A stretch of DNA of 58,926 nucleotides. Source: Candidatus Poribacteria bacterium. Its GTDB lineage: Bacteria; Poribacteria; WGA-4E; WGA-3G. The stretch's first letter is position 1. Each line of letters opens with the position of its first letter. The position numbers and the translations under genes were made by a program. The stretch is taken from assembly GCA_026706025.1 (NCBI GenBank), contig JAPOZO010000081.1:1-58926 (forward strand). The letters are read 5' to 3'. The notes beneath the pieces are model-generated. The model ran no database searches, was not told the origin of the DNA, and worked only from the letters and a program-made list of their open reading frames with translations. Shown piece by piece: positions 40,211-43,313 of the stretch.

Positions 40211-41641
40211 CTAATCAAACCTAAATCTTGACCGGAATTCGCCTAAAACGGCGATCCCCCCACCATAAAACAGCACCGCCAACGGGATCAACACCCAAAC
40301 CGACAAAAATCCTTTCAACAACACCAAACCGATACCCATCACAGCAGAGAGGCAGACGGCTTTCAAAAGTGTTGGTATTATGGGAAATGTTTCGCGGAAT
40401 GTGACTATATTTCTTGAGATATAGCCAATCCCAACCACAAGCACGTATGCTTCGCTGATGACCATCGCGATCGCTGCACCGACATGGCTGAAACGCGGAA
40501 TCAGGTATAAATTCAGGCAGATGTTCAAGAATGCTGTCGTCCCCATGAGAACTGAGAAGGCACGCCGTTTATCTGTTGCGCGTAGGACTGCCAGCACTGC
40601 GGTCGTTACGAAGAGGAGTCCACCTGCCCAACTGAGCCACTGAAGTGCTGTTGCCACTTTATCTACTTGCGCCGATGTGTAAGTCGGAAATAATACTGCC
40701 GTAATTTCGGATGATAATATTGAAAGTCCAATCGCGAACGGAAATCCGCATAGGACCATCCATCGCATACCGAAAGTGTATGCGCCCGGGAATCTCCCCT
40801 TTTCTCTCTCCCATGCACGCGACAGCACTGGAAACATCGCACCCATCATGAACGCACCCGGCAGGATTGTAAAGGCGTTGACAATGGTATACGCCAACCC
40901 GTACCACGTGTTAGCATCTACACCTTCTGAACTTAACTTTGACAGCATGATCGCATCTACACGGAAATAGAGCAAGTTGAAGAGATTACCGATAGCAAAG
41001 GGAAGTGCCTGCTGCATCAGCACTTTTACTGTCTTTCGACTTGGTTGGAAACGGAGTGGCGTGAAGTGGAATCGGGTGAACCCAACACTGAAAATAAGGT
41101 TAATGCAACCCGCTGCTAACATGACTTGACAGACAGTCACCAATCCATATCCAAAGAGGATCGCCCCGCCGCTGACGAAAAGAAAAACGCCACGCTCGGC
41201 AATCACAGTGAGTGCCTCATATTTCATCTCCTCGTATGCACGGAAGACGCACCGGTACAGCTGCGCAATGGAATTGGTGATCTCTGCTAACCCTAAGAAA
41301 ATTATCATCTCTACAATTATGGGGGTGTAGAAGAAGATACCGCTGATAAGCATGATGCTGTATGCAATGATTGACAGAATACAGCGAACGATGAGCGCGT
41401 TCCCGAGATAGTGTCGTGTCTGATGGAGATGTAGCGTCATCTCTCGGATGAGTGGGTTTTGTATGCCGAGTTCTGTTAGGATCGCAATCAGATTGGTAAG
41501 CGCAATTGCAACAAAATAGCCGCCAAGTTCACTTTCGGTGAAATAACGTGGCATCAGCCAGACTGTTATCACCAGTGAGCCGAGGCGACCGATAAGGTGC
41601 GCACTAAAGAGACTGGACGTGTTTTTAAGGATACGGTTCAT
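40211..41641 (-). CDS. Oligosaccharide flippase / Wzx-like membrane protein
   Basis: A 476-residue protein with about 12-14 membrane helices of the MOP/MATE superfamily (polysaccharide biosynthesis protein). It starts LKNTSSLFSAHLIGRLGSLVITVWL and has typical FRVDAIMLSKLSSEGVDANTWYGLAYTIVNAFTILPGAFM near 230. It moves lipid-linked sugars across the cytoplasmic membrane. Its ATG overlaps the final UGA of the redoxin frame (ATGA), implying coupling to full-length redoxin translation. No other polysaccharide genes are adjacent. Confidence 0.87.
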   Translation of the reverse strand: MNRILKNTSSLFSAHLIGRLGSLVITVWLMPRYFTESELGGYFVAIALTNLIAILTELGIQNPLIREMTLHLHQTRHYLGNALIVRCILSIIAYSIMLISGIFFYTPIIVEMIIFLGLAEITNSIAQLYRCVFRAYEEMKYEALTVIAERGVFLFVSGGAILFGYGLVTVCQVMLAAGCINLIFSVGFTRFHFTPLRFQPSRKTVKVLMQQALPFAIGNLFNLLYFRVDAIMLSKLSSEGVDANTWYGLAYTIVNAFTILPGAFMMGAMFPVLSRAWEREKGRFPGAYTFGMRWMVLCGFPFAIGLSILSSEITAVLFPTYTSAQVDKVATALQWLSWAGGLLFVTTAVLAVLRATDKRRAFSVLMGTTAFLNICLNLYLIPRFSHVGAAIAMVISEAYVLVVGIGYISRNIVTFRETFPIIPTLLKAVCLSAVMGIGLVLLKGFLSVWVLIPLAVLFYGGGIAVLGEFRSRFRFD

Positions 41642-42522
41642 CTATGCTGCAGCTGCGAGAGTTGTTCAAGAATCAGGTCCCGAGCGGGACGATCCGAATT
41701 TCGCTTGCCGATATAGAGCCATTTCAGGGTACCCGCTTTATCCACTAAGAACGTTGCTGGCAGGTACATATCCCGACGGTGGAAGTGATAAGGTTTAACG
41801 ATGCCATAAGCCTCATGGACAGAGGAACCCGGATCCGCAAGCAACGGGATGTCCATTGTTTCGGTGTCCTTAAATTTCGTTATGACTGAGATCGGTTCCG
41901 GTTTAATCGTTACAACGACGGTATCGTATTTTTCGTCGAATAGTTTTTGATGGGTCGCAAACTGCGCCGTATAATTAGCACAGACCGGTCAGTAAGTTTG
42001 AAGCAGCAAACTAACAAGTACATTCTTTTTTCCCTTATAATCAGAGAGTCTGAATGCCGTTTCTCCGTCTGCTTCGGTGAGGTTAAAATCCGGGGCAGGT
42101 GAGCCGATAGGTAAAGGCGTGTTACGCTTGAGTTTGGCGAATTCTGTTGTCAACGCGTCTATTGTTAGATTTGTTGTTTCATCGGTGTGCTTCCAGCGCA
42201 CGTATCCCGATTTATCAATAATGAACAGTGCTGTTTCTTCATCCTCGGCTGCTTGCCGCCACGCGACCCTTATGTTATATTTTGTCTTAAATTCCTCAAG
42301 TATTGGCGGAGGATACAACTTTAAGATAGGTGGCACATAATTTATGACGTATACATTGGCTTTGCCGTGACAATGCTCAGCGAAGCCGATATCTATCGCA
42401 AGTTGAGAACCGAACACGCGATCGCCGACTTCTAAACTGTGTGCAGCGGCAACAACGCCTGCCAAGAGCATCACAACGAGAAGCACGGTGTGTAAGTATC
42501 TATGAAAATGTGAAAATGGCAT
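41638..42522 (-). CDS. Probable selenoprotein: tandem-domain redoxin, Sec at residue 178
   Basis: The frame is open for 294 codons apart from one UGA at 41989-41991 (codon 178). Reading it as selenocysteine gives LLQTY-U-PVCANYT, so U replaces the first cysteine of a CxxC redox motif. Downstream sequence stays in frame and ends as a redoxin: MYLPATFLVDKAGTLKWLYIG near 252. The protein begins with a signal/anchor segment (HTVLLVVMLLAGVVAAAHSL). A first thioredoxin-like domain (about 30-140) keeps the C-terminal FIIDKSGYVRWKH strand but has no CxxC. A second begins PIGSPAPDFNL near 148. AAGGAG precedes the ATG, 24 bases after tsaB. The natural stop is also UGA and overlaps the flippase start. 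A nonsense mutation is the main alternative. Confidence 0.8.
41953..41986 (-). promoter_or_regulatory. Possible bacterial SECIS hairpin after the in-frame UGA
   Basis: Five bases or so after the UGA the mRNA can pair CUGUGC with GCGCAG (41962-41983) around a 10-base loop, UAAUUAUACG, one U-G pair included. GGU and ACC further out could add three pairs beyond a bulge. Position suits a bacterial SECIS, but the loop lacks the G/U arrangement of E. coli fdhF, so the call is tentative. Confidence 0.35.
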
Positions 42523-42546
42523 GGTGAATCTCCTTAAGTGTTGCCG

Positions 42547-43227
42547 TCAATAGAGTCCAACCCTAACGTAGTTCGGCACTAATGTCCAGTAGTCGTCAAC
42601 ATCGTCGTTTTGTAAACGTTGCCTGCCGAGATGCGCGATCGTTGCACCGCGTGGAACATTGAAAATAGCATCAGCAAAGTCGGCACGCTTGCCGAGCCTT
42701 TCACGGACTGCGTCTCCATACGTCAACAATCCATCACCAGCGAAGTTAATAGTGTGCTCTGGAGAAGTGTGTGTATCAAGACGATCAAGGAAAGCATCAA
42801 GTGATAGGCAGAGATCCTCGCTGAGACGTTGCCATTCCGTGCCGCCTTGAAAAATAGCACCGTAGACTTCACTCCGGCGAGCATCGAGAAGCGGGCAAAT
42901 GATGCCGTTTGTCCATCGGAGGTTGTACGCGACCGCTTCCAATGTTGAGACACCGACGATCGGTTTGTCGAGGGCATAACAGAGCGATTTAATCGTCGCA
43001 ACGCCGATACGGATGCCCGTAAACGATCCGGGCCCGATGCCGACAGCGCATCCGTCTAAGTCGTCTGTTGTAATGTCGCTCCACTTTAAGACCGTGTCGA
43101 TCGCAGGCATGAGTCTGGAAGAGTGTGCTTGGACGATATTGAGTGTATGTTCAGCGGCTAAGTTATCGCCGTCTATTAAGGCGACGCTGCCAATTGGCGT
43201 TGAAGTATCAATACCTAAGATTTTCAT
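42547..43227 (-). CDS. tsaB: tRNA threonylcarbamoyladenosine biosynthesis protein TsaB
   Basis: Scaffold partner of TsaD and TsaE in t6A37 tRNA modification. The 226-residue protein starts KILGIDTSTPIGSVAL, has HSSRLMPAIDTVL near 37, and the family hallmark GIGPGSFTGIRIGVATIKSL near residue 66, followed by ICPLLDARRSEVYGAIF near 111. The ATG at 43227 is chosen over an in-frame TTG one codon upstream. It ends 24 bases before the redoxin gene in the same direction. tsaE is at 25263; tsaD is not in the window. Confidence 0.93.
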   Translation of the reverse strand: MKILGIDTSTPIGSVALIDGDNLAAEHTLNIVQAHSSRLMPAIDTVLKWSDITTDDLDGCAVGIGPGSFTGIRIGVATIKSLCYALDKPIVGVSTLEAVAYNLRWTNGIICPLLDARRSEVYGAIFQGGTEWQRLSEDLCLSLDAFLDRLDTHTSPEHTINFAGDGLLTYGDAVRERLGKRADFADAIFNVPRGATIAHLGRQRLQNDDVDDYWTLVPNYVRVGLY

Positions 43228-43313
43228 CAATTATATCTAAAAAGAGCCTTAATGAAGTTAAATAATTTAGAACTTATGACATTGCTTCATAAATTCCTCT
43301 AATAATTTTTAAT

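Follow-up and report, generated by a model that had tools for sequence, protein, structure and literature searches.

The window, that is the whole stretch of 58,926 nucleotides that was analysed, belongs to a Candidatus Poribacteria MAG with a size of 6.27 Mb and a completeness of 96%. On its minus strand, a redoxin gene is flanked by a tsaB-like gene and by that of a polysaccharide flippase (Table 1). Retranslation of the redoxin gene gives 294 residues and a terminal stop, and the sole internal stop is a TGA as codon 178 (41991-41989), within LLLQTY-*-PVC, in agreement with the preliminary description, where the frame was said to be intact over its 294 codons but for one UGA. When this UGA is read as selenocysteine (Sec), the surroundings of residue 178 become NVLVSLLLQTY-U-PVCANYTAQFATHQK, and the UxxC motif is U178-P-V-C181. 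The terminal TGA of the redoxin gene shares the sequence ATGA (41641-41638) with the ATG of the flippase gene.

Table 1. Genes and features at the redoxin locus (positions in the window)
Feature	Position	Strand	Description
Redoxin gene, very probably encoding a selenoprotein	41638..42522	(-)	294 codons, ATG start, terminal TGA
In-frame UGA	41989..41991	(-)	Residue 178, first position of the UxxC motif U-P-V-C
Cys181 codon (TGT)	41980..41982	(-)	Second member of the UxxC pair with Sec178; in the alignment, at the place of the peroxidatic Cys of classical peroxiredoxins
Putative bacterial SECIS hairpin	41953..41968	(-)	Stem GGCGCA / UGCG(A)CC, one bulged A
Apical loop GUU of the hairpin	41962-41960	(-)	26 nt after the UGA
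N-terminal hydrophobic segment	42439..42522	(-)	Probable signal peptide or membrane anchor; by-eye reading of the sequence
Degenerate N-terminal redoxin-like domain	42127..42432	(-)	About residues 31-132; no catalytic U/C
C-terminal AhpC-TSA/Redoxin domain	41719..42108	(-)	Residues 139-268, with Sec178; Pfam PF00578, E 1.9e-23
Shine-Dalgarno-like AAGGAG	42530..42535	(-)	7 nt before the redoxin ATG
Polysaccharide flippase gene, downstream	40211..41641	(-)	Start overlaps the redoxin stop (ATGA)
TsaD-domain protein gene (tsaB-like), upstream	42547..43230	(-)	24 nt upstream of the redoxin start

Two Pfam families match residues 139-276, AhpC-TSA with an E value of 1.9e-23 and Redoxin with an E value of 9.1e-21, and the matches are unbroken across the UGA; the score for PF00578 is 83.1 bits, to be compared with a gathering score of 26. 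The earlier statement that undisturbed redoxin sequence lies on both sides of the UGA is correct in that the Pfam domain spans the UGA, but Pfam sees only the C-terminal half of the protein, and the N-terminal half is redoxin-like in degenerate form. In one orthologue (L118), the N-terminal half is matched by the C-terminal half of the window's redoxin with an E value of 2e-16, and Gln (CAA) stands in the Sec column. Judged by such sequence comparison, the N-terminal half is taken up by a redoxin domain in degenerate form that has lost its catalytic residues. An AlphaFold model based on an alignment of eight sequences is weak (pLDDT 59.8); it has a beta-alpha-beta order in the N-terminal domain and puts residue 178 where a helix begins behind a core strand, which is the arrangement in active sites of the thioredoxin fold. 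A Foldseek search with this weak model returned peroxiredoxins, suggesting a peroxiredoxin-like fold. The hydrophobic N-terminal segment is, by inspection, seen also in the orthologues, and the redoxin is probably exported.

The UGA had been described as the first position of a CxxC-type motif, and in the alignment Sec178 does correspond to the first Cys of CxxC motifs of the thioredoxin/TlpA type, with Cys181 in the position of the peroxidatic Cys of ordinary peroxiredoxins. The role that homology predicts, with somewhat better than even odds, is that of a Prx-like thiol:disulfide oxidoreductase or peroxidase.

Full-length orthologues of the redoxin, with identities from about 50 to 100%, are present in 19 of 85 Poribacteria genomes. 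Codon 178 is UGA in all 19, and among these full-length orthologues UAA, UAG or Cys is never found at this codon. UGA also stands at this codon in the eight full-length Poribacteria loci sampled from close relatives, a sample that overlaps with the set of 19. Candidatus Poribacteria MAGs are the source of all its close relatives, and searches of viral contigs and of plasmids gave no relatives. Cys181 is invariant in the 19 orthologues, while the two residues between Sec178 and Cys181 vary (PV, PI, PY, PS, PH, IF), which is what a functional pair would be expected to show.

A bacterial SECIS element (bSECIS) is a stem-loop just past the UGA with an apical loop of 3-9 nt and an upper stem of 4-16 bp, in which a G occurs within the first two loop positions, the loop lies 16-37 nt from the UGA and the energy is -7.5 kcal/mol or lower (PMC13188914). 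A search for such an element after the UGA had been proposed in the preliminary description, and a SECIS-like hairpin with conserved synonymous sites is found there. The hairpin was identified from the synonymous-site conservation itself: among 46 four-fold degenerate sites compared over the orthologue set of 19, conservation is highest at the two in codons +7 and +11 after the UGA, and the third positions of codons +4 to +6 vary freely. Codons +7 to +12 contain the window sequence GGCGCA-GUU-UGCG-A-CC (41968-41953), located 23-38 nt downstream of the UGA, and its GUU loop, its stem of 6 bp with one bulge and its spacing of 26 nt conform to the bSECIS geometry. The mean folding energy of the 18-nt hairpin block is -6.96 kcal/mol, compared with -1.23 kcal/mol for synonymous redraws, of which 0 out of 500 were as low, and it is the lowest among the 159 offsets examined.

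A local hairpin at or below -7.5 kcal/mol occurs in 11 of the 19 orthologues. The hairpin of the window is weaker than that of many orthologues, with -5.2 to -6.0 kcal/mol when taken alone and -7.3 kcal/mol with flanks, which is narrowly above -7.5. Covariation is slight, with one double change from G-C to A-U (in L118) and several changes from U-A to U-G, because most stem positions are invariant. In the window's genus, a competing fold over 60 nt is predicted to be more stable (-12.1 for the window's own sequence), and the other genera have no conserved version of it. The RNAalifold consensus over 45-60 nt was a different and weak structure, owing to a UGUGC/GCGCA pairing that is preferred in the window's genus but not common to the other genera, and this consensus was not retained. 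The local hairpin is a putative bacterial SECIS, the exact structure of which may differ in the window's genus, where the longer fold is predicted to compete.

The genes selA, selB, selC and selD, which the preliminary description had suggested should be sought in the same genome, are all present in the window's assembly. The tRNA-Sec is found as one strong match with anticodon UCA (78.1 bits, compared with a cut-off of 47 bits), and selB (352.8 bits, cut-off 242) ends 15 nt before selC. The scores of selA and selD are 604 and 359.8 bits, respectively, and selD has UGA at its own catalytic position (KCAG-U), so that this gene (G000:C56:238667-239590 (-), locus L017, KCAG-U-ASK) is a selenoprotein gene itself. 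Over the phylum, selA is above the cut-off in 72 of the 85 Poribacteria genomes, including 17 of the 19 that carry the redoxin orthologue. A full selA match is absent from the two remaining orthologue-bearing MAGs, G049 (81% complete) and G015; G015 has selB above the cut-off, and G049 has a C-terminal fragment of SelB at a contig edge. Two genomes of one family (G003 and G004) have no selA match, no selB above the cut-off and no redoxin match. An elongation-factor-like match to the SelB model at G000:C40:27448-28662 has one TAA inside and is possibly just the end of a tuf gene.

UGA is also found in other redox genes. Among the 22 AhpC/TSA domains of the window's assembly, seven have a UGA, each at an active-site position, and the motifs are FTGG-U and FGRG-U (peroxidatic position), W-U-PFC, T-U-GFC, W-U-PNS, W-U-GC and, in the redoxin studied here, Y-U-PVC. 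A tandem two-domain peroxiredoxin (G000:C63:293682-294503 (-), L134 and L136) reads with an in-frame UGA in each of its two domains (FTGG-U and FGRG-U) and is likely a double-Sec protein. The redoxin genes at C89:165140-165514 (-), C30:86652-87023 (+), C66:21282-21668 (-) and C63:260717-261055 (+) of G000 have the active-site motifs GGW-U-PFC, GT-U-GFC, GTW-U-PNS and GSW-U-GC, respectively, and a clear GCAACUC/GAGUUGC hairpin follows the UGA in the first two. A SelW-like gene (G000:C72:18161-18379 (-), locus L155) contains C-T-S-U, a classical CxxU. Outside the phylum, distant redoxins have UGA in the Sec178 column in Planctomycetota (L046, W-U-PFC) and in Dehalococcoidia (L051, T-U-PYC), and these two are likely selenoproteins.

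The same column is occupied by Cys in CxxC redoxins of the window's own genome, and two redoxins of one subfamily from other Poribacteria, 53% identical to each other, have U (from UGA) and C there. The alternation of C and U that an alignment of homologues had been expected to reveal at residue 178 is, in other words, found between neighbouring redoxin subfamilies, but the exact two-domain orthologues have UGA only.

Three other ways to account for the UGA have to be weighed. Consider first the case where UGA 178 is a real stop, so that the product is an N-terminal protein of 177 residues and the remainder is separate or conditional. Bacterial decoding of UGA as Sec is incomplete, with an efficiency in vivo reported as 30-40% (PMC4513850), and on that figure a truncated product is probably also made. 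As a full account of the gene a real stop is nevertheless very improbable: a chain that ended there would have its redoxin domain broken off at the active site, no start codon immediately past the UGA was seen to be conserved, and the conserved hairpin together with the machinery favours readthrough.

Even less credible is a nonsense mutation or an assembly error in an ordinary Cys redoxin, which would make the gene a pseudogene. A UGA seen in a single MAG might be an error, and a decayed remnant without the middle of the gene does exist in the same genus: in a complete genome of one contig (G084, locus L122), what stands between tsaB and the flippase is only the two ends of the redoxin (residues 1-57 in one frame and 242-294 in another), the selenoprotein gene having been lost by internal deletion. 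Against this stands the fact that the same UGA is found in 19 separately assembled orthologues, down to an identity of about 50%, with a Cys codon in none, and this bears out the earlier argument that a chance nonsense mutation is not to be expected at this residue. Selection is, furthermore, purifying past the UGA, with dN of 0.02-0.09 and dS of 0.33-1.14, and the nucleotide changes there (334/132/770) are mostly at third positions. Constraint at the level of the protein persists beyond the UGA. The order of tsaB-like gene, redoxin and flippase is kept in the window's family, and the neighbours are others in another family of the order. Since the neighbours differ between families while the UGA is kept, the UGA has outlived its genomic context. 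It follows also that the earlier argument from the flippase overlap, according to which the whole frame must be translated, holds in the window's genus but is not general.

There is as little to be said for a general reassignment of UGA (e.g., to Trp or Gly) or for a nonsense suppressor tRNA that reads it. Locally, another code would leave a frame that looks just as open, but TGA ends 13 of the window's 45 longer ORFs (one of them the 177-codon stub of the redoxin gene), the redoxin frame itself closes with TGA both in the window and in 13 of the 19 orthologues, the tRNA with anticodon UCA passes the tRNA-Sec model and has selB adjoining, and relatives have Cys, not Trp or Gly, at the UGA columns of these redoxins.

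Insertion of Sec at UGA 178 is accordingly the reading we infer, with a probability of roughly 96%, and the earlier proposal that the organism decodes UGA as Sec here finds support in the machinery genes, in the 19 UGA codons out of 19 and in the conserved hairpin. In the mechanism proposed, tRNA-Sec(UCA) would be charged via SelA with selenophosphate from SelD. SelB would recognise the hairpin downstream and bring tRNA-Sec to UGA 178, which the ribosome would pass and then continue to the terminal UGA. The product would be a probably exported redoxin of two domains, with a Sec-Pro-Val-Cys centre in the C-terminal AhpC/TSA domain, where the selenolate of Sec178 would react and Cys181 would resolve the Se-S bond.

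The preliminary description had called UxxC forms of thioredoxin-like and peroxiredoxin-like proteins recurrent bacterial selenoproteins, and related kinds have been catalogued: Prx-like thiol:disulfide oxidoreductases (PF00578, UxxC/UxxU) and redoxin-family proteins (PF08534, UxxC) are listed in PMC13188914, and 'Prx-like 1' and 'Prx-like 3' in the GOS survey (PMC2398784). The window's redoxin shares with the UxxC selenoproteins of PF00578 and PF08534 the AhpC/TSA-redoxin domain, the Sec of UxxC, a SECIS-like hairpin downstream and the bacterial Sec machinery, but differs from them by its tandem arrangement with a degenerate N-terminal domain, its LLLQTY-U motif and the occurrence of Sec only in the 19 orthologues. 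None of the curated NCBIfam models reaches its cut-off on this protein. With PrxU (TxxU) it has fold and Pfam family in common, along with a weak match to NF040737; in PrxU, however, Sec replaces the peroxidatic Cys, whereas the window's redoxin keeps Cys181 and has Sec three residues earlier, in the position where classical peroxiredoxins have Thr/Ser before the peroxidatic Cys/Sec. Genes of the TGGU type are also present in its genome. As for TlpA/ResA (WCxxC), both CxxC cysteines stand opposite Sec178 and Cys181 in the alignment, and ResA is the best NCBIfam match, far below the cut-off; unlike these proteins, the window's redoxin has Sec for the first Cys, another flanking motif and a second redoxin-like domain. 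The SelL-related model NF040769 has a Prx-like domain in common with it (37.5 bits, below the cut-off of 120 bits), but the window's redoxin has one Sec with a Cys partner.

The Poribacteria are marine bacteria, sponge symbionts among them. In a study of symbiont bins from sponges, belonging to various phyla, SelA and SelB were noted in most (PMC5649159). No paper on both Poribacteria and selenoproteins was found in the open literature searched. What is apparently new is the two-domain architecture, the lack of a Cys form within the phylum (85 genomes) and the evidence for a wide use of Sec in Poribacteria. The orthologues may, on a modest balance of probability, represent a Poribacteria-wide and apparently Sec-only lineage of exported tandem redoxins, with an inactive N-terminal and a Sec-active domain, in a phylum rich in selenoproteins.

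A standard reading ends the gene at the UGA, and the protein is therefore likely to be missing or split in annotated Poribacteria records. Sec coding in Poribacteria spans several redox families at once, and the 19 orthologues with one hairpin provide a clean case for SelB-SECIS recognition. A family that is apparently Sec-only bears, finally, on why some lineages do not revert to Cys.
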